Assembly: GCF_001509555.1 (NCBI RefSeq)
Contig: NZ_LMAS01000005.1
Location: 71,507 to 135,506, forward strand
Length of the DNA: 64,000 bases
Direction of reading: 5' to 3'
DNA from: Bacillus sp. FJAT-29937
Lineage (GTDB): Bacteria > Bacillota > Bacilli > Bacillales > Cytobacillaceae
Both the position numbers and the translations under genes were made by a program. The notes under the pieces are model-generated. The model was given only the letters and a program-made list of their open reading frames with translations, made no database searches and had not been told where the DNA came from. Shown here piece by piece: positions 45,360 through 62,477 of the stretch (positions within the stretch are counted from its first letter, which is position 1; each line of letters starts with the position of its first letter).

Positions 45360-45403
45360 TGTTTTTAAATTGCATCTGCTGCAATTTAGGGATTTATATT
45401 AAA

Positions 45404-45730
45404 TCAAAACTTCGGCAATGCATCCACCGCATCCGCCAAGTCACTATATGAATCCTTCAAATATCTGCTGGTAGTAGCGATATTATCATACCCCGCCAAT
45501 ATTCTTACCTTTTCTTTATCATTATTTGTCGCTGTTAACATCCACTTACAAAAAGTATGCAGGAACATATGAGGTGTTAATTTTTTCTTTGGCAGACTAT
45601 AACCTTCAATTAACGTCTGGATCCATCGGACCGTGAACTTCGTTGATCTTTGGCTGTAAAAGACATAGGGGAGCCTACAACATGTTGCTTGTGTTTTGTT
45701 ATTTCTCCAGCCAAATAGTTTAAATTCCAT
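45404..45730 (-). pseudogene. Degraded tyrosine recombinase (integrase), left copy
   Basis: The 108-residue frame covers only the C-terminal catalytic region: LTPHMFLHTFCKWML and VRILAGYDNIATTSRYLKDSYSDLADAV. In active enzymes the first box is HxxRH and the second LGH; here Arg is Leu (MFLHTF) and His is Tyr (LAGY), so it is inactive. A related broken copy lies at 62197-62476 in the same orientation, bracketing the island. Confidence 0.8.
45451..45659. repeat. Direct repeat, left copy (integrase DNA)
   Basis: This stretch aligns with 62265-62477 in the same orientation over about 210 bp with an estimated three-quarters identity by eye. The longest shared run includes CGGACCGTGAACTTCGTTGA. 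The two copies flank about 16.6 kb. Confidence 0.8.
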
Positions 45731-45755
45731 ATAGTATTTAAAAGGTAATACTATA
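45730..45755. repeat. Inverted repeat beside the left integrase remnant
   Basis: TATAGTATT and AATACTATA form a perfect 9-bp-arm inverted repeat across an 8-bp loop, right at the 5' end of the integrase remnant. It may be a terminator-like hairpin or part of an old recombination site. Confidence 0.35.
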
Positions 45756-45941
45756 TTTTATAAATGTAATAAGACAAAAAAATATTATTTCACGATAAAA
45801 ATTGGTATCAAGTTTTATCTGTTGAATGAATACTCAAATAATTAATGATATATTTAGAGGTTTTTTCTCCATCTGATCGAAAAGTATATAAGAATAAAAG
45901 CAACTTGTCCCATTTTTTATAATAAAAGGAGTGGATGAAAA

Positions 45942-47723
45942 ATGAGTTCCATACTTTTTGAGATACAAGACGAGGTTATTTTAGTTGCAGAAGCTATTAA
46001 ATCGGTTTTGTCGTTGGAAGTTATTATATATGATTTAAATAAAGTAGTCGTAGCAGCTACAGGTGGTGGTCAGCATGCTGTTATAGGTGAACCTGTAAGG
46101 GGACATATAATCAGTGAGGTATTAAAAACAAATAAACCTGTATACAATTTAGAACCAGGATTTCATGAAATCTGTAAAAGTTGTATCCTCTATGAATCTT
46201 GTCCAGAAAAAGCGGATGTTTCATATCCGTTAAAACACGAGGGTGAAAATGTTGGCGTTATCAGTTTAACAGCCTTTTCAGAGGAACAAAAACTGGAATT
46301 TAAAGAAAAGCATTTAATTTTATCAAATTATCTTGGGAAGATGGCTGATTTAATCAGCAGTAAAATAAATGGTAAATCCCTTTTGAAAAAGTATCTATCT
46401 ACCTCCCGAATGCTCCAAGTGACCATTCAATCTATGAATGAAGGGATCATTTCCGTAGATCGGAACGGCTATATATTAGAATTGAATCGTTCAGCTGAGA
46501 AGATTTTAAAGATATATAGAGAAGAAGTCTTAAAACAAAACATAATAGATGTGATGCCAGATTTACCAATTATGAGTGTATTATCAACAGGAAAGGGATT
46601 TTCTAATCTGGAATTTGCCCTACAAATAAATGGTATGAATATTCAGATTATAAGCAGTGCAACCCCGTTAGTTCACGATAGTCATATTATCGGGGTCGCT
46701 ATATCTTTTAAAGATTTAGATGAATTTCGGAAAATTGCCTATTCTATCACCACAGAGGCTGATGATTCAACCTTTGATACCTTAGTTGGAAAAAGCTTAA
46801 GCATTCTACAGGTAAAATCCATTGCAAAAAAAGTGGCGACAACTGATTCTACAGTCATTATTTTGGGTGAAAGTGGAACAGGAAAGGAGCTATTCGCAAG
46901 AGCTATCCATAAAGAAAGTAAAAGAGTAAATAAGCCATTTCGAGCAATTAACTGTGCGGCAATTCCCGAACAATTGTTGGAAAGCGAACTATTTGGCTAC
47001 AGTGAAGGGGCATTTACGGGTGCAAGAAAAAAGGGGAAGCCTGGAAAATTTGAGATGGCTGATGGAGGAACGTTATTCCTAGACGAAATAGGTGATATGC
47101 CTCTTCACCTACAAGTCAAAATACTTCGTGTATTAGAAGAAAGAAGGGTTGAACGAGTTGGTTCAAATGATTCGATAGAAATTAATATCCGGGTTATTGC
47201 GGCTACAAATAAAAACCTTGAACAAATGGTGAAAGATGGCGAATTTCGAGAAGATTTATTTTATCGATTGAATGTGATCCCACTCAAAATACCCCCATTA
47301 CGCGAAAGAGACGGAGATGTTTCCGTACTGCTTCGTCATTTTGTTAAACATTATGACAATATAACAGGAAAGAAAGTTAGAGGATTCACACCTGAGGCAG
47401 AGGAAATGCTTTGCGGTTATAGTTGGCCTGGAAATATCCGAGAATTACAAAATACTGTGGAATATGCCATAAATATGGCTACTGACCATTGGATAACAAT
47501 TGATAATCTCCCGCCAAGAATAAGGGATTTGGGCCACCCAATGGTTTTCAATAAAAATATTACTTTAGCTGAGATGGAAGAAAATATGATAAGGGAGGCG
47601 ATTAATAAATACGGAGATAGCTTAAATGGAAAGAAACAAGCGGCGAAGGAGCTTGGGATAAACCTAGCCACTTTATATAGGAAAATCGGAAAATATCAAA
47701 ACATTCGCAAAGTGCAAATTTGA
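45942..47723 (+). CDS. Sigma-54-dependent transcriptional activator (enhancer-binding protein)
   Basis: This 593-residue protein has an N-terminal sensor domain with a Cys cluster (CKSCILYESC at 78-87), a PAS domain (about 150-265), an AAA+ domain with Walker A GESGTGKE (about 308), the sigma-54 loop GAFTGA (about 355) and Walker B GGTLFLDEIGD (about 375), and a Fis-type HTH (about 560-585). It should bind upstream sites and use ATP to open sigma-54 promoters. The operon at 47939 with a -24/-12 promoter is the obvious target. AAAAGGAG precedes the ATG. Confidence 0.92.
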   Translation: MSSILFEIQDEVILVAEAIKSVLSLEVIIYDLNKVVVAATGGGQHAVIGEPVRGHIISEVLKTNKPVYNLEPGFHEICKSCILYESCPEKADVSYPLKHEGENVGVISLTAFSEEQKLEFKEKHLILSNYLGKMADLISSKINGKSLLKKYLSTSRMLQVTIQSMNEGIISVDRNGYILELNRSAEKILKIYREEVLKQNIIDVMPDLPIMSVLSTGKGFSNLEFALQINGMNIQIISSATPLVHDSHIIGVAISFKDLDEFRKIAYSITTEADDSTFDTLVGKSLSILQVKSIAKKVATTDSTVIILGESGTGKELFARAIHKESKRVNKPFRAINCAAIPEQLLESELFGYSEGAFTGARKKGKPGKFEMADGGTLFLDEIGDMPLHLQVKILRVLEERRVERVGSNDSIEINIRVIAATNKNLEQMVKDGEFREDLFYRLNVIPLKIPPLRERDGDVSVLLRHFVKHYDNITGKKVRGFTPEAEEMLCGYSWPGNIRELQNTVEYAINMATDHWITIDNLPPRIRDLGHPMVFNKNITLAEMEENMIREAINKYGDSLNGKKQAAKELGINLATLYRKIGKYQNIRKVQI

Positions 47724-47818
47724 TTCGCATTTTGCAAATAAGAGGAAATCAAGGCAGGTAAAGTCTTTTAATGTTGAATTGAAAGGCTTACCTGCCATTT
47801 TTATTTGCATTTTGCGAA
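47704..47818 (+). promoter_or_regulatory. Three enhancer-like sites for the sigma-54 activator
   Basis: Palindromic 15-mers TTCGC-AAAGT-GCAAA (47704-47718), TTCGC-ATTTT-GCAAA (47724-47738) and TTTGC-ATTTT-GCGAA (47804-47818) share the consensus TTYGC-N5-GCRAA. The first two are 20 bp apart, two helical turns. They lie about 65-180 bp upstream of the -24/-12 promoter, the usual range for enhancer sites. Confidence 0.75.
47753..47803 (+). terminator. Terminator of the activator gene
   Basis: GGCAGGTAA and TTACCTGCC (47788-47796) form the stem base, extended by AGTCTTT/AAAGGC with a bulge, followed by ATTTTTA. It isolates the activator transcript from the operon. Confidence 0.8.
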
Positions 47819-47883
47819 TAAACTTAAAAGTTTTATTATGAGGAAATCCATATATTAATGCGATTTCAAACTTTATTTCAATT

Positions 47884-47899
47884 TGGCACAGATATTGCA
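47884..47899 (+). promoter_or_regulatory. Sigma-54 (-24/-12) promoter of the catabolic operon
   Basis: TGGCAC-AGATA-TTGCA matches the sigma-54 consensus TGGCAC-N5-TTGCA fully, with 10 bp between GG and GC. Transcription should begin near 47910, 29 bp ahead of the first ATG. Confidence 0.9.
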
Positions 47900-47938
47900 T
47901 TATTAAATATATCAAAGAAAAAATGGAGGAAGGAAGAT

Positions 47939-48919
47939 ATGAATACTATTCGAAAAATGTTCATGATGAAGTCTGTTCAAACGATTCTTAAGACTTGTTT
48001 AAATGTAAAACCAGGAGAAAACCTACTCATCCTAACAGATACCAACACGACTGAAATAGGGGAGATGTTTGCAATTGTAGGACATGGGATGGGCGCAGAG
48101 GTTGTTCTGACAGTCATGCATCCAACGACAAGACATGGTGATGAACCGCCAAGAATTATCGCTGAAGCCATGAAAGCAGCCGATGCAATCGTTGCTCCGA
48201 CAACATTCTCTATTAATCATTCAACTGCCAGAAAAGAAGCAAGTAACGCTGGTGCAAGACTCATTTTTATGCCTGATGCGAACGAAGAAGTTTTCTTGGA
48301 TGGATCTTTAGATATTGATTTTATGGCCCAAAAGGAAGTGATCGATAAGGTATCAGCCATATTAGAGGCAGGCGAAGAATTAAGCATTACTTCAAAATTA
48401 GGAACGGAACTGCACATGAAAATTTCAGGTCGACATGCAGTACCTCAAACAGGAATTTGCCACGAACCTGGTATGATTTCACCGCCACCATGCATTGAAA
48501 CTGCAATATCGCCAATTGAAGGCACAACAGAAGGAGTTATGTACGTGGATGGGGCAATAGTACCTGGAAGAGCATGTCAAGAGCCAGTAAAAATTACCTT
48601 TAAAGAAGGAAGAATTGTTTCGATTGAAGGAAAAGAAGATGCAGAAATGTTAAGACAAACTTTAGAAAGCTACAATCATCCGAATGTCTATTGCGCGGTA
48701 GAAATGGGAATGGGTATGAACCCAAATGCAAAGATTGGCAGGGGAGGACAACTAGAGGACGAGGCGGAATTTGGTACGATGCATATTGGAATTGGAAATG
48801 GAATCACCTTCGGAAGCAGTATAAGGGCACCGGGCCATTGCGATCTTGTCATGCGTGATCCTGTCATTAAAGTGGATGGCAAAATTCTTATGAAGGATAG
48901 ACAACTCTTTTTAGATTGA
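47939..48919 (+). CDS. M29-family metalloenzyme, first copy (leucyl aminopeptidase / NicX-like)
   Basis: This 326-residue protein belongs to the M29 fold, which includes aminopeptidases and the Fe(II) enzyme NicX (2,5-dihydroxypyridine 5,6-dioxygenase). Metal ligands seem present: VEMGMGMNP, FGTMHIGIG and GHCDLVM (HxD). At this length it is nearer NicX-like proteins than true aminopeptidases of about 410 residues. ATG 47939 follows GGAGGAAGGAAG; the longer frame starts before the sigma-54 promoter and is impossible. First gene of the operon; a paralogue is at 53946. Confidence 0.75.
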   Translation: MNTIRKMFMMKSVQTILKTCLNVKPGENLLILTDTNTTEIGEMFAIVGHGMGAEVVLTVMHPTTRHGDEPPRIIAEAMKAADAIVAPTTFSINHSTARKEASNAGARLIFMPDANEEVFLDGSLDIDFMAQKEVIDKVSAILEAGEELSITSKLGTELHMKISGRHAVPQTGICHEPGMISPPPCIETAISPIEGTTEGVMYVDGAIVPGRACQEPVKITFKEGRIVSIEGKEDAEMLRQTLESYNHPNVYCAVEMGMGMNPNAKIGRGGQLEDEAEFGTMHIGIGNGITFGSSIRAPGHCDLVMRDPVIKVDGKILMKDRQLFLD

Positions 48920-48936
48920 GGGGGGAGGGCTTTTGA

Positions 48937-50454
48937 TTGGATTTAAGTTTAATAGGAGAATCGATTGCTAGTATCTTATCTGTTAAAGTCTTGCTTTTGT
49001 TTTTATTTGGGACAATTGCAGGCATGGTTGTAGGAGCACTTCCCGGACTTACTACCACTATGGGAGTATCCATATTAATTTCATTTACATGGGGTATGGA
49101 ATGGATCGAGGCAATGGTGTTAATTATTTCTGTTCATATTGCAGGTACATACGGGGGATCCACACCTGCCATATTTTTGAATATACCGGGCACCCCAGCA
49201 TCTGCGGCCACTTCCATGGACGGATATCCTATGGCGCAAAGAGGGGAAGGGGGCTTGGCTCGTGGGCTTGCGACTTTTCAATCCTTTCTTGGAACCATCT
49301 TTGCAGCCGTTCTGTTCTTAATTGGTGCCCCCTTACTTTTAAACTTTAGTATGAGCTTTGGGTCATGGGAATATTTCTTACTGGCCATGTTCGGAATTAT
49401 ACTTAGTGCTAATTTGACTGCAGAGTCACTGGTAAAAGGATTAATCTCAGGATTTTTAGGATTGGCTTTAGCGACAGTAGGAATGGATAAAATTACGGGA
49501 GTACAACGGTTTACTTTTGGTGAAAGCGCTTTAATGGATGGGTTCAGCCTCATTGCTGTTTTAATAGGAATCTTTGGTATCGCGGAAGTGATTGAATCCT
49601 TAATCCAGCTCAAACCTCCATTAAAAGCTGAAAAATTTAAATCTATTTTTCCACCGTGGCGGATGTTGGTGAAGTTTCTACCTACTGGAGGAAAATCCTC
49701 CGTAATTGGGGCTTTAATAGGAGCAATCCCTGGAGTTGGAGCGGATGTAGCCGCATGGGTTTCTTATGATGCTGCCCGCCGAAGCAGTAAGAATCCTGAA
49801 AGTTTTGGAAAAGGAAATCCAGAAGGAATCGTCGCTGCAGAAACCGCGAATAACGCTTGCGTACCCGGATCCTATATCCCTATGCTCACACTGGGAATAC
49901 CAGGGGATGCCGTGACAGCCGTCATTATAGGGGGACTCTTGTTACATGGATTGCAACCTGGTCCATTATTACTTACTCAGAACCCAAATATTTTACAACA
50001 GTTTTTTATCATTTTAGTTGTTTCCGCAGTATTTATGCTGATATTTGGGTTACTCTTTTCGTTTCTATTTCAAAAAGTTTTGTCTGTTCCAAGAAGCGTT
50101 GTTTTAATGACGGTTACTGTATTTAGTGTTATCGGAACGTTTGCCGTTAATAGCCGTCCATTTGATATCGCAGTCATGTTTGCTTTTGGGATTATTGGCT
50201 TTTTAATGCGAAGGGTTGGCCTTGCTGCTCCTCCCCTAGTACTCGGATTAATTCTAGGCTTAATGGCTGAACAAAATTTTCGAAGAGCCATGGTTAGTGC
50301 TGATTATTCGTTTCTGCCATTTATAACACGTCCTATAAGTCTATTCTTACTTGTATGTATTGTGTTTTTGCTATTGAACCAAAATCAATTTTTATCAAAA
50401 AAGTTTAAAAAAGTATGGAAGAAAATAAGAACTGATGAGGAGGCAAAATTATGA
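48937..50454 (+). CDS. Tripartite tricarboxylate transporter, large permease TctA
   Basis: This 505-residue protein is a TctA permease of about 12 helices with the typical motifs GALPGLTTTMGVSI, GTPASAATSMDGYPMAQRGEGG and GAIPGVGADVAAWVSYD. With TctB and TctC it takes up carboxylates using an ion gradient. The start is TTG, 7 bases behind GGAGGG. It follows the M29 gene by 17 bp and overlaps the TctC gene by 4 bases (ATGA). Confidence 0.92.
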   Translation: MDLSLIGESIASILSVKVLLLFLFGTIAGMVVGALPGLTTTMGVSILISFTWGMEWIEAMVLIISVHIAGTYGGSTPAIFLNIPGTPASAATSMDGYPMAQRGEGGLARGLATFQSFLGTIFAAVLFLIGAPLLLNFSMSFGSWEYFLLAMFGIILSANLTAESLVKGLISGFLGLALATVGMDKITGVQRFTFGESALMDGFSLIAVLIGIFGIAEVIESLIQLKPPLKAEKFKSIFPPWRMLVKFLPTGGKSSVIGALIGAIPGVGADVAAWVSYDAARRSSKNPESFGKGNPEGIVAAETANNACVPGSYIPMLTLGIPGDAVTAVIIGGLLLHGLQPGPLLLTQNPNILQQFFIILVVSAVFMLIFGLLFSFLFQKVLSVPRSVVLMTVTVFSVIGTFAVNSRPFDIAVMFAFGIIGFLMRRVGLAAPPLVLGLILGLMAEQNFRRAMVSADYSFLPFITRPISLFLLVCIVFLLLNQNQFLSKKFKKVWKKIRTDEEAKL

Positions 50455-51494
50455 AACTTAAAATGATGTTTCTATTATCTATGTCATTCATTTTATTACT
50501 AGGTGCCTGTTCTAGTAATCAATCCAATAATGCAAATTCAGAGGAAGATACAATAAAAGAAGACAAATACCCCGCACAGCCAATTGAAATCATTGTTGGG
50601 TTTGGTGAAGGTGGGGGAACGGATACGATGGCAAGAACCCTCCATCCAATGCTTCAAGAAGAATTAGGGCAACCAATTGCTGTAAGAAATATGCCTGGGG
50701 CTTCGAGTGCACTAGCCTTGGAATATGTGAATGAGCAAGAAGCCGATGGCTATACAATCTTATTCCAAACAGACCTTGTACGGGTATTCCCAACGATGGG
50801 AATGACTGATTTAACCTATAAAGATTTCGAACAAATTGGGATCGGGGCTATGGGGATTGCAAACTTTATTGTTAATGAAAAGTCTAATCTGAAATCATTC
50901 GATGATGTGGTAAAACTTCTAAAAGAAGGAAATGCCAAAGTTGGAGTAGCTGCTATTGGAGATCCGTGGCATCTTACCTTGGAAATTGTTAATAATGTTG
51001 TCGGCGGAGATGCTGAAATTATAACCTACGATTCAGGGTCAAACGCTGCAATGGCCGCTATGAAAGGGGAAGTAGATTTCTCCATTAGCGGGGTTAACGA
51101 AGTTGTAGATTTACTGCGTTCAGGTGATTTACGTTCCTTAGCTGTGATGGATAATAAAGCATTTGAAGTGGATGGTTTCGGATCTATCCCTCCGGTGACT
51201 GATTTTGTTGCAGGCATGGATAAGTATGTACCTGAAGGAACATGGTGGGGACCAGCAGTAAAAAGCGGAACACCAAAGGAAATCGTGGATCAATTAAGAC
51301 AAGCTTATAACAAAGCAATTAAAAGTGAAAAGTTTAAAGAGTTTGCGAAGAAACGGGCAATTGTCTTAACAGATATTGAAGATAGCCAACAATATACAAA
51401 AGAAATCACAGAGAAAACAAGTTGGTTACTATGGGATATAGGTGTTGGGAAACGATCACCTGAAGAAGTAGGGATTAGTAAGCCGCAAGAGTAA
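50451..51494 (+). CDS. Tripartite tricarboxylate transporter substrate-binding lipoprotein TctC (Bug family)
   Basis: This 347-residue lipoprotein has the lipobox LLGAC (Cys20). A Bug-type binding protein follows, with YPAQPIEIIVGFGEGGGTD, NMPGASSALALEYV and MAAMKGEVDFSISG. It captures the carboxylate at the membrane and passes it to TctA/TctB. The four-base overlap with the TctA gene indicates coupled translation. The order A-C-B differs from the common C-B-A. Confidence 0.92.
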   Translation: MKLKMMFLLSMSFILLLGACSSNQSNNANSEEDTIKEDKYPAQPIEIIVGFGEGGGTDTMARTLHPMLQEELGQPIAVRNMPGASSALALEYVNEQEADGYTILFQTDLVRVFPTMGMTDLTYKDFEQIGIGAMGIANFIVNEKSNLKSFDDVVKLLKEGNAKVGVAAIGDPWHLTLEIVNNVVGGDAEIITYDSGSNAAMAAMKGEVDFSISGVNEVVDLLRSGDLRSLAVMDNKAFEVDGFGSIPPVTDFVAGMDKYVPEGTWWGPAVKSGTPKEIVDQLRQAYNKAIKSEKFKEFAKKRAIVLTDIEDSQQYTKEITEKTSWLLWDIGVGKRSPEEVGISKPQE

Positions 51495-51510
51495 TTGAAG
51501 GGAGAAGAGG

Positions 51511-51951
51511 ATGAGAATTAATAAGGATTTTATTCTTTCAGGTATGGTACTAACCTTTGGTCTCTTTTTAGTAATAGAGAGTTTTACATTCCCAGAAGGG
51601 AAACATCTTTTAAATTCTTCGCGTTCGTTTCCAATGTTATTAGGCTATGGTTTTACGGCGCTAGCAATCTGGCAATTTATTAAAACCTTTCGTGAGAAAA
51701 AAGAAAAAACAAAAGAATCCTTTTCACGTCTTGAAATTAAAAGGGGAGTCGTCTTTATTCTTCTTACGGTTGGGTATATTTTTGTGCTTATTCCTATGAT
51801 AGGCTTTATGATTTCTACATTGTTGTTTCTATTTATTGGGATATTGTTTTATAAAGAAATTCGTTGGTACACAGCATCATTGATATCTATCGGAATGATA
51901 GGTTTCGTTTACTTAGTTTTTGAACAACTAATGAATATTCGACTACCTTAA
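51511..51951 (+). CDS. Tripartite tricarboxylate transporter small permease TctB
   Basis: This 146-residue protein has four predicted transmembrane helices and the TctB pattern (N-terminal LSGMVLTFGLFLVIESFTFP; then SRSFPMLLGYGFTALAIWQ). It completes the three-part transporter. GAAGGGAGAAGAGG precedes the ATG, 16 bp after the TctC stop. Confidence 0.85.
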   Translation: MRINKDFILSGMVLTFGLFLVIESFTFPEGKHLLNSSRSFPMLLGYGFTALAIWQFIKTFREKKEKTKESFSRLEIKRGVVFILLTVGYIFVLIPMIGFMISTLLFLFIGILFYKEIRWYTASLISIGMIGFVYLVFEQLMNIRLP

Positions 51952-52005
51952 AAGCAAAAAGTTGTAGGATTGTTATCCAATAAATAATCTGGGTTGGTGA
52001 TAATA

Positions 52006-53127
52006 ATGAAAATCAAAAAAAGCATTGAAAGAGTTCCTGGCGGTCTAATGGTTATCCCTCTTATGTTAGGGGCACTATTAAATACGATTGACCAGCTTCA
52101 CATTCCTTTTATTATGAACATCCTTAAATCCTTAGGGGTATCACCTGCCCAAGAAGGTATTTATGAGTTTATGAGAATTGGCGGCTTTTCGGAGGCTCTT
52201 TTTAAAAATGGAACCTTAACGCTTATTGGTTTATTTCTATTCTGTGCAGGTAGTCAAATGAATTTGAGAGTAGGTGGAAAGGCTTTAAAGAAAGGTATTT
52301 TGCTTACCTCAAGTAAGTGCTTAACCGGAATTCTCATTGGAATTTTGTTTGGAATATTTTTTGATCCAATGAACGGTCTTCTTGGTTTATCGACAGTGGC
52401 GATTATTGCAGCTATGACCAATGGAAATGAAGGAATGTATGCAGTTCTTACAGGTCAATATGGAAACCGTTCAGATGTTGGTGCAATCTCTGTTTTAACT
52501 TTAAATGACGGCCCATTCTTTACAATGCTTGCATTAGGAATGGTTGGGTCACATTTTCCACTAATCGCATTTATTGCGGTATTGCTGCCAATAGCTCTTG
52601 GAATGCTGCTTGGAAACTTAGATGAGGATATTCGAGAATTCCTAAAGCCTGGAGAAACATTACTTGTCCCATTCTTTGCATTCTGTCTTGGAGCAGGAAT
52701 GAACTTTATGAGCTTCTTTAATCCAGAGGCAGTCTGGGGAGGGTTAGCTTTGGGCTTTGCAACAGTTATTTTATCAGCTATTACAGGGATCCTAGTCTAC
52801 CGTTTATTCGGTGAGAGAAGCACAATTGGTCCAGTTGCTGAAGCATCAACGGCAGGGAATGCGGTTGGGACCCCTGCAGCCATCGCTGCAGCCGCAGCAG
52901 TCTCAGCTGGGGCAGGACTCATGACATTGGAAGAGGCAAAGGCTTTCCAAGATATTGCGAATCTGGCAACCATACAAATTTCGATATCTACAATTACTAC
53001 GTCCATTTTATGTCCAATAGCAGTCATCCTTTGGGATAAGTATCAAAGAAGCAAGGGGATTGATGGAACAATAGAAGACATTTCTAAAAAAATAATAGTT
53101 CAACCAGAAATGAAACAGAATGCTTGA
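52006..53127 (+). CDS. 2-keto-3-deoxygluconate permease family transporter (KdgT-like)
   Basis: This 373-residue protein has about ten hydrophobic helices and KdgT-family motifs (RVPGGLMVIPLMLGALLNT, LTLNDGPFFTMLALG, TAGNAVGTPAAIAA). KdgT imports 2-keto-3-deoxygluconate with protons; here the neighbours point to another 2-oxo or hydroxy acid, so specificity is open. The start is set at ATG 52006, where GGTGAT is the only upstream purine block. A second transporter in the same operon as TctABC is notable. Confidence 0.82.
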   Translation: MKIKKSIERVPGGLMVIPLMLGALLNTIDQLHIPFIMNILKSLGVSPAQEGIYEFMRIGGFSEALFKNGTLTLIGLFLFCAGSQMNLRVGGKALKKGILLTSSKCLTGILIGILFGIFFDPMNGLLGLSTVAIIAAMTNGNEGMYAVLTGQYGNRSDVGAISVLTLNDGPFFTMLALGMVGSHFPLIAFIAVLLPIALGMLLGNLDEDIREFLKPGETLLVPFFAFCLGAGMNFMSFFNPEAVWGGLALGFATVILSAITGILVYRLFGERSTIGPVAEASTAGNAVGTPAAIAAAAAVSAGAGLMTLEEAKAFQDIANLATIQISISTITTSILCPIAVILWDKYQRSKGIDGTIEDISKKIIVQPEMKQNA

Positions 53128-53145
53128 AGATAGGAGATGAAAGGT

Positions 53146-53910: not shown

Positions 53911-53945
53911 TATTAAACATTGAGGAACTGGAGGAGATTTACTTT

Positions 53946-54941
53946 ATGAAAGATGTGCTAATGTACCCTGCAGCCAACGCATTAGTAAAAGTATTGGCTG
54001 GAGTTGTTGAAGGAGAAAAGGTATTAATTTTAACTGATTTTCTAACGGAAGGAATATCAAAAGTACTTGCGTCTGCCACTGCTGCATTAGGTGCAGAACC
54101 AATCACCATATCAATGTTACCAAGAAATGGACACGGGGATGCCTTGCCAGAAGCTATAGCTGCTGCGATGAAAGAAGTAGATGTGGTTATCGCTCCAACG
54201 ACATATAACATTGCTCATACAAAAGCACGCCATGACGCACAGATGGCTGGAACAAGGATTTTAATTTTGCCTGAATCACATGAAAACATTCTTTTAAGTA
54301 GTGGATTGCGTGCTGACTTTGTTGCAATAAGGCCTCAAGTGGAAAGGCTTGCTAATATTTTGACAAACGGGGAATTCGTTCGAATTACAACACCGAAGGG
54401 CTCCGATTTACGCTTTTCCATTAAAGGTAGGGAAGGAAGGGCATTAACTGGATTTGCTAATACAAAGGATGTATCTGCGGCGCACTGTATTGAATCTAGC
54501 ATTGCCCCAGTTGAAGGAACAGCTGAAGGTATACTGGTCGTTGATGGAAGTATTCCAGGTGTTGGCCTGATTGATACTCCCGTAGTAGTGGAATTTAAGG
54601 AAGGGAAAGCCATTTCGATCACAGGCGGAAAAGAAGCTGATCTGTTTAAAAAAGTGTTAGAAGAAAGAAATGATGAAAACGGAAATATCTACTTTGCTGG
54701 TGAATTCGGAATTGGCATGAATCCGGAGTGTCAATTAGAAAACAGTATGTTAAGTGATGAAGGCGTGTTTGGAACGATTCACATCGCTTTAGGAACGAAT
54801 GCTTATATCGGAGGGAACATTAAAGCAAAGGGCCACTACGATATGGTTGTCAATGCTCCTACAGTTGAAATTGATGGAAATGTCATTTTAAAAAATAAAG
54901 AGCTATTTTTAAATAATGAAAATTTAATTGGAAAATCTTAA
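53946..54941 (+). CDS. M29-family metalloenzyme, second copy (leucyl aminopeptidase / NicX-like)
   Basis: This 331-residue protein is a divergent paralogue of the operon's first gene, sharing layout and ligand motifs (GEFGIGMNP, FGTIHIALG, GHYDMVV). Both contain APTT in the N-terminal half (VIAPTTYN here, IVAPTTFS in copy 1). Clear divergence suggests the two either act on different intermediates or form a hetero-oligomer. GGAGGAG precedes the ATG. Confidence 0.75.
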   Translation: MKDVLMYPAANALVKVLAGVVEGEKVLILTDFLTEGISKVLASATAALGAEPITISMLPRNGHGDALPEAIAAAMKEVDVVIAPTTYNIAHTKARHDAQMAGTRILILPESHENILLSSGLRADFVAIRPQVERLANILTNGEFVRITTPKGSDLRFSIKGREGRALTGFANTKDVSAAHCIESSIAPVEGTAEGILVVDGSIPGVGLIDTPVVVEFKEGKAISITGGKEADLFKKVLEERNDENGNIYFAGEFGIGMNPECQLENSMLSDEGVFGTIHIALGTNAYIGGNIKAKGHYDMVVNAPTVEIDGNVILKNKELFLNNENLIGKS

Positions 54942-54972
54942 TTCGAAGAATAAGCGTAAGGAGATGGATAAA

Positions 54973-56121
54973 ATGGGTGCTTTAAAAGGAATACGTGTTG
55001 TTGACTTAAGTCAGGTCATGGCGGGACCTTATTGCGGAATGCTGTTGGCAGATATGGGAGCTGATGTCATTAAAGTTGAACCACCGAATGGCGAAAACAC
55101 TAGAACGTGGTCACCAGGAATAAACGGTGAAAGCTATGCTTATATGGCAATCAATAGAAACAAGCGCGGTATGACCCTTAACTTAAAAACAGAGGAGGAC
55201 AGGAATACTTTTTATAAATTAATTGAAACAGCCGACATCTTAATTGAGAACTATCGCCCTGGTGTTGTTAAAAGATTGGGTATCGACTATGACACTCTTA
55301 TTAAAATAAACCCACGGCTCATTTATTGCTCTATTTCTGGATTTGGCCAATATGGACCATATTCTTCCCGCGGAGGATATGACTTAATTGCTCAAGGGAT
55401 GACAGGGATTATGAGTGTGACAGGTGAAAGAGGCGGGAAGCCAGTAAAATGCGGAATACCGGTTATTGATTTGGGTGCAGGATTATTCTCTGCATACGGG
55501 ATTTTATCAGCTTTATATGCCAGAGTAAATACAAATGAAGGGCAATTTATTGATGCCTCCCTATACGATACGGGCATTGCGTTATCTGTCTGGGAGAGCA
55601 TCCAGTTTTGGGTATCTGGCGAAACGCCTACCCCAACTGGAAGCGGACATCGATTATCTGCACCGTATCAAGCATTTGAAGCAAGCGATGGATATTTTAC
55701 TGTAGGGGCAGATACATCGCATCATTGGCCAGTATTCTGCGAAATTATAGGAAGACCTGAATTCCTAAATGACAATAGATTTGTAGATGATGCTTCACGT
55801 ATTCAGCATTTAGATGAATTTGTTAGATTAATAGAAGAAAAAACTCGTTTAAAACCAAGAAAATATTGGTTCGATAAATTTGATGAGGCAGGGATTCCAG
55901 CCGGCCCAATTAACACATACCCGGAATCATTAACGGACCAGCACACGTTTTCCCGAAAAATGGTCGAAGAGGTCGAGCATTCGGTTGCTGGAAAAGTAAA
56001 AGCGCTAGGTATTCCCGTCAAATTATCAAAAACACCGGGAGAAATTAAAAATTCAGCACCTACTTTAGGAGAACATAATGAGGAAATACTAAAAGAATTA
56101 GGCCTTGTCTCAAGCAGTTAA
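54973..56121 (+). CDS. Class III CoA-transferase (CaiB/BaiF family)
   Basis: This 382-residue protein has the family III start (VVDLSQVMAGPYCGMLLADMG), the IKVEPP motif and the catalytic Asp in GGYDLIAQG (Asp137). It transfers CoA between acids, activating the substrate for the enoyl-CoA hydratase. ATG 54973 is 9 bases behind AAGGAG; ATG 54964 touches it and the longer frame from 54928 overlaps the previous gene. Confidence 0.9.
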   Translation: MGALKGIRVVDLSQVMAGPYCGMLLADMGADVIKVEPPNGENTRTWSPGINGESYAYMAINRNKRGMTLNLKTEEDRNTFYKLIETADILIENYRPGVVKRLGIDYDTLIKINPRLIYCSISGFGQYGPYSSRGGYDLIAQGMTGIMSVTGERGGKPVKCGIPVIDLGAGLFSAYGILSALYARVNTNEGQFIDASLYDTGIALSVWESIQFWVSGETPTPTGSGHRLSAPYQAFEASDGYFTVGADTSHHWPVFCEIIGRPEFLNDNRFVDDASRIQHLDEFVRLIEEKTRLKPRKYWFDKFDEAGIPAGPINTYPESLTDQHTFSRKMVEEVEHSVAGKVKALGIPVKLSKTPGEIKNSAPTLGEHNEEILKELGLVSSS

Positions 56122-56171
56122 TCTTATTTTACTACATTAAGATATTACTTTTTAAGGAGTAGGATGTTCAT

Positions 56172-56699
56172 ATGATTCAATACTTGAGGGGACGGGTGCC
56201 TTCCGTTCATTCGGAGACATTTATTCATGAATCTGCACAAATTATTGGGGACGTGAGGATTGCAAAAGATGTCAGTATCTGGCCACAATCTGTGCTCAGG
56301 GGTGATGATCATAATTATATAGAAATTGGGGAAGGAAGTAATATTCAAGATGGCACCATCTGTCATGTTACACCGGAATCTCCACTTGTTATTGGAAAAA
56401 TGGTTACAGTTGGACATAGGGCAACCTTACATGCTTGTACAATTGAAGATGGTGCATTAATTGGAATTGGTGCTATCGTCTTAGATGGAGCAATCATTAA
56501 AAAAGGAGCCCAAGTAGCTGCCGGAGCAGTCGTTCCACCAGGAAAAGTAATCCCTGAAGGGACATTAGCCGTTGGTATCCCTGCAAAGGTCATCCGAGAA
56601 CTACATGATAAGGAAAAACAAGGCCTTATTGCTAATGCAAAAGAGTATATTGAGCTTTGGAAAAATAATTATAAACAAGAGAGTGAGGCCGAATACTGA
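56172..56699 (+). CDS. Gamma-carbonic-anhydrase / CaiE-like hexapeptide protein
   Basis: This 175-residue left-handed beta-helix protein has hexapeptide repeats and the three zinc-ligand His positions (CHVTP, VGHRATLH). It resembles gamma-carbonic anhydrases and CaiE/PaaY. PaaY-type proteins act as thioesterases or supply cofactors in CoA pathways. The neighbouring CaiB-like and crotonase genes mirror the caiBDE association. The stop overlaps the next start (TGATG). Confidence 0.88.
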   Translation: MIQYLRGRVPSVHSETFIHESAQIIGDVRIAKDVSIWPQSVLRGDDHNYIEIGEGSNIQDGTICHVTPESPLVIGKMVTVGHRATLHACTIEDGALIGIGAIVLDGAIIKKGAQVAAGAVVPPGKVIPEGTLAVGIPAKVIRELHDKEKQGLIANAKEYIELWKNNYKQESEAEY

Positions 56700-58006
56700 T
56701 GAATCAGGAGAATATGAGTTTATTTGAAAGAGGTAATCAAGTACTTCCTCCAGTAGCGGGAAGAGCAACAAATCTTGGAATTGTAAAGGCTATTGGTTCG
56801 ACTGTCGTGGATGAAAAGGGCAAATCATATTTAGACTTTGCCAGCGGAGTGGGTGTTAATAATGTAGGACATTGCCACCCAGAAATTATTGAAGCAGTTA
56901 AAGAACAATTAGATTCCATGATTCATATTGGCCACAATGTCGCCTACTATCCATCATATATTAAACTTGCTGAGGAATTAAACTATCTAACTGGATCTAA
57001 CAAAATGGTTTATTTTTCAAATAGTGGAGCCGAAGCGAATGAAGGTGCTATTAAACTAGCGAAAAAAGCCACTAAACGACCGGCCATTATTTCTTTTAAA
57101 AGGGGATTTCACGGCCGAACACTAGCAACTACATCGATTACATTTTCCAACTCTTCCTACCGTAAGGATTATGAAGGATTATTTCCAAGCATTTATTCTT
57201 GTGAATATCCTTATTCCTTCCGATCAGGTTTAAGTAATGAGGAGGAGACCGAAAGATGTATTCAAAATATAGAAGAAGTGTTTACGTATCAAGTGGATCC
57301 TTCTCAAGTGGCAGCCATCATACTTGAACCTGTACAAGGAGAAGGTGGATATATTGTTCCACCGAAGGAATTTATTAAAAAGATAAGAGCTCTTTGTGAT
57401 AAACACGGTATTCTACTTGTGTTCGATGAGGTCCAAACAGGGTTTGGAAGAACAGGTAAAATGTTTGCTTATGAGCATTTTGAAGTAGAGCCAGATATTA
57501 TCACCTTAGGTAAAGGGATTGCATCCGGTTTTCCCTTAAGTGCAGTTATCGCCAAAAGGGATATCATGGAAAAATGGGAATCCGGAACACATGGCGGTAC
57601 ATATGGTGGAAATCCCGTTTCATGTACTGCAGCATTGGCCTCCATCCAAATATTAAGACGCGAAGGAATCGAAAACGCCAGAAAGATGGGAGATTATTTA
57701 AAGAAGCAATTGCTTGATTTACAAAAGGAGTTTAAAGGCATCGGCGATGTTAGAGGCTTAGGATTAATGATAGGGATAGAGTTTGTTAATGAAGAAGGTA
57801 AACCAGATGCAAAAACGGTCAATTGGCTTAAAAATCACGCTTTAGAAAACGGACTCATTCTATTAACATGCGGAACTGAAAAAAATGTCTTACGATTTAT
57901 TCCGCCAACAACAGTCCATCAAAATGAACTTGATCAATCAATACTTATCCTAAAAGATGGATTACAGAAATTAAGTAATAAGGAGAACAGCCATGCTATA
58001 TATTAA
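56699..58006 (+). CDS. Class III aminotransferase (4-aminobutyrate aminotransferase-like)
   Basis: This 435-residue PLP enzyme has NSGAEANEGAIKLA, the metal of fold type I FDEVQTGFGRTG and the PLP Lys272 in LGKGIASGFP. It moves an omega-amino group to 2-oxoglutarate or pyruvate and would make a semialdehyde. The next gene is a semialdehyde dehydrogenase, so the pair mirrors GabT-GabD. The exact substrate (GABA, 5-aminovalerate, beta-alanine or other) cannot be decided. It overlaps its neighbours on both sides. Confidence 0.88.
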   Translation: MNQENMSLFERGNQVLPPVAGRATNLGIVKAIGSTVVDEKGKSYLDFASGVGVNNVGHCHPEIIEAVKEQLDSMIHIGHNVAYYPSYIKLAEELNYLTGSNKMVYFSNSGAEANEGAIKLAKKATKRPAIISFKRGFHGRTLATTSITFSNSSYRKDYEGLFPSIYSCEYPYSFRSGLSNEEETERCIQNIEEVFTYQVDPSQVAAIILEPVQGEGGYIVPPKEFIKKIRALCDKHGILLVFDEVQTGFGRTGKMFAYEHFEVEPDIITLGKGIASGFPLSAVIAKRDIMEKWESGTHGGTYGGNPVSCTAALASIQILRREGIENARKMGDYLKKQLLDLQKEFKGIGDVRGLGLMIGIEFVNEEGKPDAKTVNWLKNHALENGLILLTCGTEKNVLRFIPPTTVHQNELDQSILILKDGLQKLSNKENSHAIY

Positions 58007-59417
58007 CGGCGAATGGAAATCATCAAGACAGGGTGAATACTTAACTGTTTATAACCCTGCCACATTAGAAAAGGTCGGAGAAGTTGCTTTTGGAGGCAAA
58101 GAAGATGTAGAAGAAGCCATCTATGCGGCTTCAGAGGCGTTTAAAACTTGGAAGAAAGTTACAGCTGATGAAAAATCTCGCTACCTAAAAGAAATTGCAA
58201 TCAATTTAAGGGATATTGAGGAAGAGCTAGCAACGACGATTACATTAGAAATGGGGAAACCATTAAAAGAGGCCCTTGGGGAAGTAAGGCTAGCTATTTC
58301 TTATGTTGATTGGTATGCCGAAGAGGCAAAACGTATTTACGGAGAAACGATACCAGCTTCAGCCCAAAACAAAAGAATTTTAGTGCTTCGAGATCCGATT
58401 GGCGTTACAGGTGCCATCACACCTTGGAATTTCCCAGCTGCTATGGTTACACGTAAACTTGCTCCAGCCATTGCCGCCGGCTGCCCGGTTATTTTAAAAC
58501 CAGCTTCAGTGACCCCTCTAACAGCGGTCAAAATTTTTGAAGCAATAGATAAAGCAGGTTTACCGAAAGGAGTAGCCAATTTAGTACACGGTCCATCCAA
58601 CGAGGTTGCTCAATCTTTATTAGATAGCACACATGTCCAAAAAATCACCTTTACAGGTTCAACGGAAGTAGGCAAGAAATTAATGAGAGAAGCCGCAAAT
58701 ACGGTTAAGAAGGTCTCAATGGAATTAGGCGGCCATGCTCCATTTATCGTATTTGAGGATGCTGATCTAGAGGTTGCCGCTGATGCTGCAATTGCTAGTA
58801 AATTTAGAAATGCAGGGCAAACATGTGTATGTACAAATAGAATCTATGTTCAAGAAGAGGTTGCTAAGGATTTTTCGCAGATTCTCACAGAAAAAGTTAA
58901 GCAATTAAAAATAGGAAATGGGCTGGAAGAAGGAACAGAGATTGGACCTTTAATTAATGAGGAAAGTCTCGCAAAGGTAATGGAACATGTAGAAGATGCA
59001 ATAACAAAAGGCGGAAACATACTATGCGGTGGTGAACGTGAAATTTTGAATCAAAAAGGTGCATTCTATCAGCCGACAGTTATTAATAACGCCAATGAAT
59101 CTATGAAAATCGCAGTAGAAGAAACCTTTGGTCCTGTTGTTCCGATCTTTACCTTTAAAACGGAAGAAGAGGCGATTGAAAAAGCAAATCATCCATTCTA
59201 CGGGCTTGCATCTTATTGTTATACGAATGATTTAGGTCGTGCGTTTCGTGTCATGGAATCATTAGAGTATGGAATTATTGGAATTAATGATGCAATGCCA
59301 ACGACAGCCCAAGCGCCATTCGGTGGATTAAAAGAAAGTGGAATTGGTAGAGAAGGAGGAAAATACGGATTAAGCGAATATCTTGAAGAAAAGTTTGTTT
59401 CTCTGAATATTGGTTAA
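57993..59417 (+). CDS. NAD(P)-dependent (semi)aldehyde dehydrogenase
   Basis: This 474-residue aldehyde dehydrogenase has TPWNFPAAM, FTGSTEVGKKL, catalytic Glu in MELGGHAP (about 244) and the nucleophile in GQTCVC (about 278). It is of the succinate-semialdehyde type. It overlaps the aminotransferase gene by 14 bases, strong evidence for a coupled step. GAPDH-like regulation by a second Cys (TCVC) is seen in GabD but untested here. Confidence 0.9.
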   Translation: MLYINGEWKSSRQGEYLTVYNPATLEKVGEVAFGGKEDVEEAIYAASEAFKTWKKVTADEKSRYLKEIAINLRDIEEELATTITLEMGKPLKEALGEVRLAISYVDWYAEEAKRIYGETIPASAQNKRILVLRDPIGVTGAITPWNFPAAMVTRKLAPAIAAGCPVILKPASVTPLTAVKIFEAIDKAGLPKGVANLVHGPSNEVAQSLLDSTHVQKITFTGSTEVGKKLMREAANTVKKVSMELGGHAPFIVFEDADLEVAADAAIASKFRNAGQTCVCTNRIYVQEEVAKDFSQILTEKVKQLKIGNGLEEGTEIGPLINEESLAKVMEHVEDAITKGGNILCGGEREILNQKGAFYQPTVINNANESMKIAVEETFGPVVPIFTFKTEEEAIEKANHPFYGLASYCYTNDLGRAFRVMESLEYGIIGINDAMPTTAQAPFGGLKESGIGREGGKYGLSEYLEEKFVSLNIG

Positions 59418-59431
59418 GAGGAGAAGTTCGA

Positions 59432-60832
59432 ATGGATGTAATCATTAAAGAGTTTGAAGAATTTCTACCTTCAAATCAAATTTTAACGAGTTTGGCAAGC
59501 AGGTACAGTTATAGCTATGATGCTTCATTCGGAACCTACCTGCCTGATTTCGTTGTGCAGGTAAAGAATAAAGAAGAAGTATCATCAATTTTAAAACTAG
59601 CAAACAAATATAAAATTCCAGTAACGCCCAGAGGACAAGGGACATCTCTTAGTGGAGGTCCCCTTCCTGTAAAAAACGGCATTGTTTTAGATATGTCTCA
59701 ATGGGATAGTTATCTACAAATATATCCCGATGATCTCGTGGCAGTCGTTTCACCGGGAGTTCTCACCGCAACAATTAATGAAACTGCTGGTAAATATGGT
59801 TTGATGTATCCGCCTGACCCAAGCAGTGCGCATGTTTCCACCATTGGAGGTAATTTAGCGGAAAATTCCGGCGGACCTCGAGGCCTAAAGTACGGAGTGA
59901 CGAAGGATTATGTAATTGGCTTAGAAGTTGTAACCCCTGAAGGCGAAATTATTAAAACAGGCGGGAAAACGATTAAAAATGTCACGGGCTATGATTTAAC
60001 GAAAATAATTGTTGGGTCTGAAGGCACTTTAGGTGTTATTACCGAAGCTACTTTAAAATTGGTGCCTAAGCCACCAGCAACCTTAACAATGATGGCTGTT
60101 TTTGATGATCTTGTTCTGTCAGGAAAAGCCATATCAAAAGTATTAACAAATGGAATCCTTCCTTCCAAAATGGAAATCATGGATCAGTTTTCAATCATTG
60201 CAGTAGAAAACTATCAGCCTATTGGTCTGCCAACTGATTGTGAGGCGATTATTCTAATCGAATTAGATGGCCATCCATTGGCTATTGAAGACGAAATGAA
60301 AAAAATTGAATCCATTTTTACGGAAATTGGATCTGTAAAAGTGAAAATTGCTAAGGATGAAGCAGAAGCTGCGAGCTACTGGAAAGCGAGAAAACTAGTT
60401 TCTCCAGCTATAGTAAAAATTAAACCAACAAAAGTCTCTGAAGATGCAACGGTTCCTCGAAGTAAGATTCCTGAAATGTTTCAGCGATTAAAGGAAATCC
60501 GTGAAAAATACAATATTCATCTTGTTGTGTTTGGCCATGCCGGCGATGGTAATCTACATCCAAATATTATCTGTGATAAACGTGATGAAGATGAGATGAT
60601 TCGGGTGGAGAAGGCTGTTGCTGAGATTTTCGAGGCAGCTGTCCAATTAGGCGGAACCCTTTCAGGTGAGCATGGAATCGGAACACTGAAGTCTCCATTT
60701 ATGGAAATGGAATTAGGTGAAATTGGGCTTGATATGATGAAAAAAATTAAGCAAGCATGGGATCCAAATAATATATTAAATCCTGGGAAAATTTTCCCTG
60801 AAAAAGGGCAAAAGCTGGTGTTACGGGGATGA
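59432..60832 (+). CDS. FAD-linked oxidase subunit, GlcD family
   Basis: This 466-residue protein has the FAD-binding (PCMH) domain with PRGQGTSLSGG and GGNLAENSGGPRG, and the C-terminal oxidase domain with FGHAGDGNLHPN and SGEHGIGTLK. It oxidises a 2-hydroxy acid (glycolate, lactate or 2-hydroxyglutarate) and passes electrons to the iron-sulphur partner downstream. GAGGAG precedes the ATG. Confidence 0.9.
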   Translation: MDVIIKEFEEFLPSNQILTSLASRYSYSYDASFGTYLPDFVVQVKNKEEVSSILKLANKYKIPVTPRGQGTSLSGGPLPVKNGIVLDMSQWDSYLQIYPDDLVAVVSPGVLTATINETAGKYGLMYPPDPSSAHVSTIGGNLAENSGGPRGLKYGVTKDYVIGLEVVTPEGEIIKTGGKTIKNVTGYDLTKIIVGSEGTLGVITEATLKLVPKPPATLTMMAVFDDLVLSGKAISKVLTNGILPSKMEIMDQFSIIAVENYQPIGLPTDCEAIILIELDGHPLAIEDEMKKIESIFTEIGSVKVKIAKDEAEAASYWKARKLVSPAIVKIKPTKVSEDATVPRSKIPEMFQRLKEIREKYNIHLVVFGHAGDGNLHPNIICDKRDEDEMIRVEKAVAEIFEAAVQLGGTLSGEHGIGTLKSPFMEMELGEIGLDMMKKIKQAWDPNNILNPGKIFPEKGQKLVLRG

Positions 60833-62124
60833 GCAGGACTAGTTTAAAAGAAAAGTTAAATTACAATGAAACATTTAATTGCGTCCAATGTGGTTATTGC
60901 TTACCGGCGTGTCCAACATATGAAACAATGAAAACAGAAGCGCATACCCCTAGGGGAAGAATCAATCTAGTTAGGATGCTTGCTGAGGAAAAAATTAGTG
61001 TTGAAGATTTAAGAGAACCAATTGAAAATTGTCTTGGTTGCCGGGCATGTGAACCCGTATGCCCAACCAATGTCCAATACGGAAAAATATTGGAGGGAGC
61101 TAAGGAAGTTTTAGAGGATAATGCAAAGAAAACGAAAATACAAAGAAAAGTTGAATCTATTCTCTTTGATCAGATGATCCCTTCTAAAAAGTGGATGAAC
61201 TTTATAGGAAATGCTTCATGGTTCTATCAAAAAACAAGGTTGCAAAAAGTAGCTCGAAAAACGGGCGTAACTAAAAGAGCACCTCTTCATCTTGGAGAAT
61301 TCGAAGCGGTATTACCTAACCAAACTTCTCCGCAGATCCGTAAACAAATGGTGCGTGACAATAAAGCCATTGGCCCTAAAAAAATGGTTGTTGGTTTTAT
61401 TACTGGATGCGTCATGGACTCAATTTTTCACGAAACAAATCGTAACACCATAAAATTATTAACAATGTCTGGAGCCGAGGTGATTATTCCTGAAAACCAG
61501 ACTTGTTGTGGGGCACTGCACGCCCATTCAGGAAAAACAAACTCTGCCAAAGAGCTTGCCAAAAAAAATATAGAGGCTTTCGAAAAGGAAAACGTAACAT
61601 ATATCGTAAATAACGCCGGTGGATGCGGCGCGACTCTTGTGGAATACGAACATCTATTCATTGGAGATGAAGAATGGGAAGAACGGGCAAGAAAATTCGC
61701 AAAAAAAACTAGAGATATCTCCCAAGTTTTAAATGAACTTGATGGCCTGCGTTTTACAAACAATATTAATGAGACAATTACCTACCAATCTTCTTGTCAT
61801 ATGAAAAATGTGCAAAAAGTAACTGAAGAACCTTTAGCATTACTAAAGCAAGTTCCAAATGCTGGATACAGAGAAATGAAGAATTTCGACCGTTGTTGTG
61901 GATCAGCAGGCATTTATAATCTTGTAAACTATGAAGAATCCATGGACATATTAGATATTAAAATGAAAAATGCAAAAGAAACAATCGCTACAATTATTGT
62001 AACTACAAATCCGGGCTGCCTATTGCAAATGAAGCTAGGTATTCAAAGGGAAGGGATGAAGAAAACAGTCAGAGCCATCCATCTTGTTGATTTGCTAGTA
62101 GAGGCAGGAGCAGTTCCAAAATAG
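60829..62124 (+). CDS. Iron-sulphur electron-transfer subunit, GlcF family
   Basis: This 431-residue protein has two 4Fe-4S motifs (CVQCGYCLPACP and CLGCRACEPVCP) and two CCG-type boxes (TCCGALHAHSGK, RCCGSAGIYN). It pairs with GlcD and sends electrons to the quinone pool. It overlaps the GlcD gene by 4 bases. No GlcE-like subunit is present, so a two-part enzyme is likely. Last gene of the operon. Confidence 0.9.
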   Translation: MSRTSLKEKLNYNETFNCVQCGYCLPACPTYETMKTEAHTPRGRINLVRMLAEEKISVEDLREPIENCLGCRACEPVCPTNVQYGKILEGAKEVLEDNAKKTKIQRKVESILFDQMIPSKKWMNFIGNASWFYQKTRLQKVARKTGVTKRAPLHLGEFEAVLPNQTSPQIRKQMVRDNKAIGPKKMVVGFITGCVMDSIFHETNRNTIKLLTMSGAEVIIPENQTCCGALHAHSGKTNSAKELAKKNIEAFEKENVTYIVNNAGGCGATLVEYEHLFIGDEEWEERARKFAKKTRDISQVLNELDGLRFTNNINETITYQSSCHMKNVQKVTEEPLALLKQVPNAGYREMKNFDRCCGSAGIYNLVNYEESMDILDIKMKNAKETIATIIVTTNPGCLLQMKLGIQREGMKKTVRAIHLVDLLVEAGAVPK

Positions 62125-62134
62125 CAAGTCGAGC

Positions 62135-62162
62135 AGGAGGGGCAGACACCCCTCCTCTTAAA
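62135..62162 (+). terminator. Operon terminator
   Basis: AGGAGGGG (62135-62142) and CCCCTCCT (62149-62156) form a perfect 8-bp GC-rich stem followed by CTTAAAC. The T run is short. Confidence 0.6.
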
Positions 62163-62196
62163 CAATTACTTCGTATTTCTTCTTGTATCAAATATC

Positions 62197-62476
62197 TCAG
62201 TAACATCCTTGTTTCTTCGCAGATGCTTCACTTTTTAACACTGAATCAACCAAATCAACATAAGAATCCCTCCAATATTTGCTTGTCGTTGCAATATTAC
62301 TATGCCCCGCCAATCTTCTTACCTTTTCAATATCATTAATTGTCACTTTAAACATCCATTTACAATATGCATGCCGGAACATATGAGGCGTGCGTTAATC
62401 TTTTCTTTGGCAGACTATATCCTTCAAGCATCGTCTGGATCCCTCGGACCGTGAACTTCGTTGATCTCTGGCTGTA
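62197..62476 (-). pseudogene. Broken tyrosine recombinase (integrase), right copy
   Basis: The reverse strand reads QRSTKFTVRGIQTMLEGYSL, then a frameshift near 62395, then PHMFRHAYCKWMF and VRRLAGHSNIATTSKYWRDSY. The Arg and His catalytic positions are kept (FRHAY, LAGH), unlike the left copy, but the frame is broken and the N-terminal half is missing. It lies just outside the operon terminator. Confidence 0.8.
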
Positions 62477-62477
62477 A
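62265..62477. repeat. Direct repeat, right copy (integrase DNA)
   Basis: This stretch aligns with 45451-45659, same orientation. The homology stops at about 62477, exactly where the truncated flavoprotein frame begins. Confidence 0.8.

Follow-up and report, generated by a model that had tools for sequence, protein, structure and literature searches.

Same-orientation stubs of a plasmid-type recombinase between catabolic gene modules in a Bacillus chromosome: a possible fossil of serial module capture

How did a complete catabolic operon come to lie between two pieces of the same integrase gene in the chromosome of Bacillus sp. FJAT-29937? The window analysed here, a stretch of 64,000 nucleotides, comprises positions 71507-135506 (forward strand) of contig NZ_LMAS01000005.1, in an assembly of 4.55 Mb (21 contigs, completeness 100, contamination 9.28). 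The preliminary description of this DNA recorded two integrase remnants of one orientation flanking a regulator and an operon, a direct repeat of about 210 bp formed by them, and different lesions on the left and the right; all of these observations hold. The remnants, stubs A and B, both lie on the minus strand, 16.8 kb apart, with the regulator and operon unit complete between them, and each retains no more than the 3′ third of its gene, which is 933 bases long when complete and encodes a 310-residue tyrosine recombinase. The direct repeat consists of two segments, 45425-45577 versus 62239-62391 (80% identity, offset 16814) and 45576-45667 versus 62394-62485 (90% identity, offset 16818), and a whole-genome search aligned stub B with stub A at 82% over 243 query bases and E 8e-66, a match that excludes chance similarity. 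In stub A the Arg of the HxxR motif is Leu and the next His is Tyr, and the reading of stub B is broken across two frames; these changes carry little weight because two thirds of each gene are gone.

Stubs A and B belong to a longer row. Two further stubs, C and D, follow to the right of the window; all four are on the minus strand in one orientation, with the 16.8 kb between A and B followed by 15.8 kb between B and C and 12.8 kb between C and D, and each interval holds a different catabolic gene set. Between A and B this is the operon. Between B and C we recognized by eye a flavoprotein lacking its N-terminus, TauE-like and carboxylate-type transporters, a succinate-dehydrogenase-like set, a malate-dehydrogenase-like gene, a GntR regulator and an altronate-dehydratase-like gene, together with a fumarate hydratase found by family search and a galactarate-dehydratase-like match by profile. 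Between C and D, mostly by eye and in part by family search, there are a GntR-type regulator, an M20 peptidase, an Opp transporter and amino-acid oxidases. A search of the genome with the recombinase gene found no intact copy. We propose, with a confidence that stops just short of even, that this part of the chromosome is a composite in which 3′ stubs of a tyrosine recombinase gene of plasmid type, all in one orientation, part the catabolic modules, and that the row is a fossil of serial module capture.

What kind of recombinase do the stubs represent? Its Pfam domains are Phage_integrase and a SAM-like domain, and its NCBIfam scores lie under every cut-off shown: 174.6 bits against the XerC model (equivalog cut-off 335.15), 152 against XerD (329.6) and 73 against the integron integrase subfamily model (265). 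Relatives occur at 45 loci of named genomes, in Bacillus and its kin, Geobacillus, Parageobacillus, Anoxybacillus, Aneurinibacillus, other Bacilli and one Sulfobacillus bin; among plasmids, the PLSDB records that match at or above 60% identity number 36, of which 14 lie at 80-90%. All 185 matching phage records fall below 60% (29-31% among the 10 matches listed), and for this reason identity as a close phage integrase was rejected. The kin are plasmid recombinases with a tripartite site 5′ of the gene rather than known phage integrases. The recombinase belongs to an Xer/TnpI-like family found on Bacillaceae plasmids, its likeness to TnpI being one of site architecture. At least five copies are present in Neobacillus pocheonensis (L126, L127, L133, L138 and L148), L133 being interrupted and L138 carrying an internal deletion. 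A frame of 1858 aa lies downstream of an intact recombinase in L124 (11970-17546) and L125, in a stretch largely common to two Neobacillus-related genomes.

Immediately upstream of the gene, a stretch of 160 bases contains a palindromic core (about AACTAGTCATATAAT-ATAC-ATTATATACGTT) and then the core's left arm twice more as direct repeats, the second of which lies close to, or overlaps, the gene start. We wrote a motif from 30 loci, after core hits in five plasmids had been seen, and the scan found three arms at 42 of the 47 full-length loci and at least two arms at 44, with spacings mostly of 53-54 and 56-57 bases; random windows from the same loci served as controls (0 of 1532). The plasmid loci, which were not used for writing the motif, have three arms in 17 of 17 cases. 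For TnpI and its IRS site, PMC7157771 describes a site directly upstream of the recombinase gene, with an inverted-repeat core, IR1-IR2, and direct repeats DR1 and DR2.

Comparisons between plasmids show that modules are joined at the core. Ten pairs of loci are at least 93.9% identical; in seven of them, similarity on the 5′ side breaks off 0-11 bases short of the core start (the others at −36, −1037 and −1171), and on the 3′ side similarity extends at least 347 bases beyond the stop codon in nine. These pairs are not all independent, some sharing members, and in two the core position was taken from the other partner; pairs below about 94% were left out, since there an end of similarity at the core may mark only the edge of functional constraint. 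Half-sites, in which unrelated sequence takes over after the left arm and centre, lie 5′ of the gene in the same orientation on pGS18, NZ_CP040554 and pGEOTH01 (Table 1). Weaker matches, with 5 mismatches, occur in PasCK1, L144 and L151, and the reversed sequence of the same 1.40 Mb gave one match at up to 5 mismatches. No far-end half-site with 4 mismatches or fewer was found in the other 44 of the 47 loci, within the DNA scanned for each, or in the window, the match in pNCI002 being its second full copy.

The strongest case for the core as a border is what appears to be a two-ended swap between pGS18 and the Parageobacillus plasmid NZ_CP040554. The outer flanks are 97.5% alike up to the last base of the half-site, the modules of 14.5 kb and 3.2 kb have no mutual match on either strand, and the match resumes at the core and continues through the gene at 93.4%. 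A search with the pGS18 outer flank returned only these two plasmids, both already known, and for the NZ_CP040554 module the best 20 of 51 records contained no further long match. Likewise, 120 bases of the pGEOTH01 outer flank (95%) are contiguous with the core, repeats and gene on pSJEF4-2-1, and on pGEOTH01 this common flank ends at the last base of the half-site, about 2.4 kb before the core. The pGEOTH01 outer flank matched nine records, most of them through an IS256 copy that it contains; pSJEF4-2-1 was the informative one, and pNCI001 shows the same as pGEOTH01. The 5′-side DNA includes aromatic-type catabolic genes (pHTA426 and a Peribacillus asahii plasmid) and CoA-transferase/HMG-CoA lyase genes (pBsrF30), elsewhere glycosyltransferases, ABC transporters and others, and is thus not catabolic alone. 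A model in which cargo lies solely 3′ of the gene was rejected: L124 and L125 share 7 kb there, but it is 5′ of the gene that the plasmid pairs differ.

Which part of the gene survives in incomplete copies elsewhere? We compared 36 genomes of the genus (35 congeners and the window's own); the whole-genome searches scored part of the first-look candidates, 8 per genome for the operon and 11 for the recombinase, and the absences given here for these genomes rest on them. With the full-length query there are 15 incomplete copies, of which 12 retain the 3′ end, to within about 35 bases of the stop codon, two are internal and the last is a short match near the gene start, about 35 bases long, at E 2e-4; one more C-terminal match, in G002, was obtained with a shorter query only. 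Similarly, 11 of the 47 full-length loci contain 12 extra fragments, every one of them from the C-terminal part (position 529 onwards), located 3′ of the full-length copy and oriented like it. On pNCI002 (L156:46972-47893 and 319-1365), two copies of core plus recombinase stand head to tail, about 1.2 kb apart, across the start of the circular record.

On the evidence of the plasmid comparisons, modules are joined and swapped at the core, 5′ of the gene, with the recombinase as the probable agent. Two functional sites would form a direct repeat once a second copy arrived, and resolution would remove it; the arrangements that persist would be those in which one site was lost, and stubs with the 3′ end of the gene would remain. 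Four stubs in a row would then represent at least three rounds of module joining in the chromosome, after which the sites would have decayed and the modules become fixed, the operon at 45.9-62.1 kb being one of them. The step from plasmids to this chromosome is what we infer for this genome, in which all four local sites are lost. More broadly, and still more tentatively, we suggest that Bacillaceae plasmids possess a self-contained capture system, an Xer/TnpI-like gene with its own tripartite site, that joins and swaps multi-gene modules, among them catabolic operons, transporters and glycosyltransferases, at the core. All that each round left on the 3′ side would be a C-terminal stub, because the second working site would be resolved away and the 5′ side continually replaced, and rows of stubs in chromosomes would record the captures.

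Does the operon behave as a module? It is patchy across the genus and behaves as an island. The whole operon is present in eight of the 35 congeners (G009, G006, G005, G011, G027, G003, G020 and G024) at 73-76% nucleotide identity; the regulator precedes it with the order kept in all eight, in most of them at 76-77% protein identity (G003 has split frames for the regulator and the GlcD-like protein), and the neighbours differ from the window's flanking genes. The regulator and operon had been described as a self-contained unit, and their kept order at these other places agrees. In the six congeners closest by RNase J (G019, G028, G021, G018, G007 and G022; 85-90%), the operon search gave single-gene matches at most. 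RNase J, one gene only, is 70-71% identical between the carriers and the window's own genome. The identity of the operon to its carriers is thus near that of an ordinary gene; with its patchy distribution, movement of the operon is likely, though not recently from those species.

G028 is a close relative that has part of this region. At G028:C1:816323-830501 it shares a large portion of the B-C module (64462-77058), with 93% nucleotide identity over most of that portion and 82% towards its right end. The operon is absent from G028, and the order of blocks around the shared part differs, with rearrangement on both sides. G028 also has a stub at the right end of the B-C module, and beyond it a catabolic set other than the window's C-D module: by eye, a sigma-54 regulator, hydantoinase A/B, an amidohydrolase and a permease. 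No clean empty site joining 45.4 and 62.5 kb, which the preliminary description had suggested looking for in relatives, was found in the genomes of the genus compared here, G028 included. A 382-aa FtsZ-like frame (by eye) lies at G028:C1:793817-794965, about 1.3 kb from a recombinase stub.

These observations bear on three other explanations. That A and B are the ends of one integrative element, which entered once and then lost its integrase, was the preliminary model, and its first half, islandhood, stands on the patchy distribution of the operon. The stubs flank the operon exactly, and they group weakly with G028 stub a (support 85/73). As the two ends of one element, A and B fare poorly: there are four stubs, not two; the 83% identity of A and B is near that to the copies of other species (72-81% between either stub and the six intact copies compared); their own grouping has support of 58/0 (31 rows, 310 columns kept); the operon's carriers lack the gene beside it; and the family's recombination site is at the 5′ end of the gene, which both stubs have lost. 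The number of stubs and the 83% identity likewise led us to reject, as less likely, A and B as attachment-site copies of a single insertion, and we consider the one-element model quite improbable. The tree is too short to settle the ages of the stubs.

Mere coincidence is another reading: the stubs would be neutral remains of a dispersed gene that has nothing to do with the operon, which would have descended within the genus and changed place. This reading requires no recent import from the carrier species, given how close the operon's 73-76% is to the 70-71% of RNase J, and it accords with seven of the eight carriers having no recombinase match genome-wide at E 0.001 (in the eighth, G009, the match is about 270 kb from the operon). 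It does not explain why the operon was not found in the six closest congeners, why four stubs of one orientation each lie between different gene sets, or why a comparable arrangement exists on plasmids, and we think it unlikely. We would say the same of homologous recombination as the sole agent, in which dead dispersed copies act as portable homology for RecA-dependent circle integration or rearrangement and the recombinase is inactive here. Single crossovers between homologous circles always yield direct repeats, all four stubs share one orientation, and the region is heavily rearranged relative to G028; but stubs of about 72-303 bases that are about 80% alike are poor substrates, and the plasmid breakpoints at the core and the C-terminal bias of the extra fragments are left unexplained.

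Several observations also weigh against serial capture itself. In this chromosome, scans at up to 4 and up to 5 mismatches found no core or half-site in 121 kb of the contig around the window, and the mechanism is therefore not readable directly here. No plasmid replication or transfer genes were noticed by eye among the listed open reading frames at 42-101 kb, the lengths of the stubs within the window show no age order, and the operon occurs in eight congeners without the recombinase nearby. Stub C and G028 stub b, both adjacent to one and the same GntR gene, have 71% identity, a test of their orthology neither establishing nor rejecting it (p-AU 0.335), and homology between the two genomes stops short of the stubs (own 77058, G028 830501); these stubs therefore possibly stem from separate events. 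Elsewhere, the 12 extra fragments reduce by our estimate to about six independent cases, several of the plasmids being related. The reverse pattern exists on pSJEF4-2-1 (L173:6097-6588), which has the tripartite site and the first approximately 370 bases of the gene and has lost the 3′ part. In Neobacillus pocheonensis three same-orientation copies lie within about 115 kb, and a fourth is nearly 400 kb away in the opposite orientation. The comparison of pSJEF4-2-1 with pGEOTH01 looks like an empty versus a filled site, but the gene parts are 79% alike and only the 120 bases of outer flank match, the rest and the 3′ side having no match, and replacement of the whole gene side could equally account for it. 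Finally, the split between backbone and cargo is not clean: ParA is on the 5′ side in pGARCT and pBsrF30, and a dmpG catabolic set is on the 3′ side in two plasmids.

How does the proposed capture system compare with known ones? With TnpI/IRS of Tn4430 and Tn5401 (Tn3 family), the shared features are a tyrosine recombinase and an upstream inverted-repeat core with two direct repeats; the difference is that the site here is a border between changing modules. At the 17 plasmid loci, the annotation in the PLSDB gene tables, which are incomplete, gives no Tn3-type transposase TnpA next to the gene. The pdif (dif) modules of Acinetobacter plasmids are comparable in that modules with Xer-type sites as borders are reported to be exchanged between plasmids and chromosome. 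They use the host XerC/XerD, whereas here the recombinase gene adjoins the site, accessory repeats are present and the far end of the module is marked by half-sites only, in three modules. In integrons, the recombinase gene has the exchange site on its 5′ side and variable DNA beyond, a layout common to both systems; the integron integrase score given above and the multi-gene blocks that form the modules here set them apart. Genomic islands and integrative and conjugative elements at tRNA genes share a patchy gene block beside integrase relics, but a tRNA search found no tRNA gene in the window, there is no close phage-integrase kin, and no transfer genes were noticed by eye. Titles and the openings of abstracts among the open-licence papers listed gave no description of such a system. 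If the proposal is correct, a gene usually annotated plainly as a tyrosine-type recombinase/integrase would be a hub of gene-set exchange in Bacillaceae, like the dif modules of Acinetobacter but with its own enzyme. Catabolic operons would have a testable route between plasmids and chromosomes in Geobacillus, Parageobacillus, Peribacillus and Cytobacillus, and scattered integrase fragments would become markers of module borders.

Table 1. Features in and beside the window (window positions unless stated otherwise) and half-sites on plasmids.
Feature	Position	Strand or orientation	Basis or remark
TRAP transporter DctM gene remnant, several stops	45126..45404	+	PF06808 match of first piece
Stub A, tyrosine recombinase 3′ end	45404..45706	-	gene positions 621-931 of 933 bases
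PAS / sigma-54-dependent activator	45942..47723	+	family profiles; one unit with operon in 8 congeners
M29-aminopeptidase-like protein 1	47858..48919	+	PF02073, E 1.1e-8
TctA transporter subunit	48937..50454	+	PF01970
TctC binding protein	50451..51494	+	PF03401
TctB transporter subunit	51511..51951	+	PF07331
KdgT-family permease	51994..53127	+	PF03812
Enoyl-CoA hydratase family	53137..53910	+	PF00378
M29-aminopeptidase-like protein 2	53946..54941	+	PF02073, 25.2 bits, under cut-off 27
Family III CoA-transferase	54928..56121	+	below equivalog cut-offs
Gamma carbonic anhydrase-like	56172..56699	+	below cut-off
Class III aminotransferase	56699..58006	+	NF005993, above cut-off
Succinate-semialdehyde-dehydrogenase-like aldehyde dehydrogenase	57993..59417	+	TIGR01780, 610 bits vs cut-off 646
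GlcD-like FAD oxidase	59432..60832	+	TIGR00387, 511.6 bits vs cut-off 567.9
GlcF-like iron-sulphur subunit	60829..62124	+	below cut-offs
Stub B, recombinase 3′ part, same family	62239..62486	-	gene positions 640-912 of 933 bases
Flavoprotein without N-terminus, abuts stub B	62461..63234	+	family profile matches
Stub C	contig 149582-149839 = window frame 78076-78333 (right of window)	-	80% match
Stub D	contig 162372-162479 = window frame 90866-90973 (right of window)	-	72-base DNA match, 81%, E 1.9e-11
Half-site pGS18	14.7 kb away, 5′ side	same orientation	0 mismatches
Half-site NZ_CP040554	3.3 kb away, 5′ side	same orientation	1 mismatch
Half-site pGEOTH01	2.5 kb away, 5′ side	same orientation	4 mismatches

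The families of Table 1 suggest that the operon at 45.9-62.1 kb serves the uptake (TctABC and a KdgT-type permease) and CoA-dependent breakdown of some organic acid. The genes at the edges are damaged, as had been described. In the DctM remnant, the 32-aa piece before the first stop matches PF06808 positions 216-246 at E 4.7e-5 and 22.8 bits, just under the cut-off of 23.8, and the next piece has no family match at E up to 1. The flavoprotein beside stub B lacks approximately 70-120 N-terminal residues, the number varying with the family compared. Finally, the two M29-aminopeptidase-like genes of the operon (47858-48919 and 53946-54941) are a diverged pair with weak family matches and possibly have another activity.

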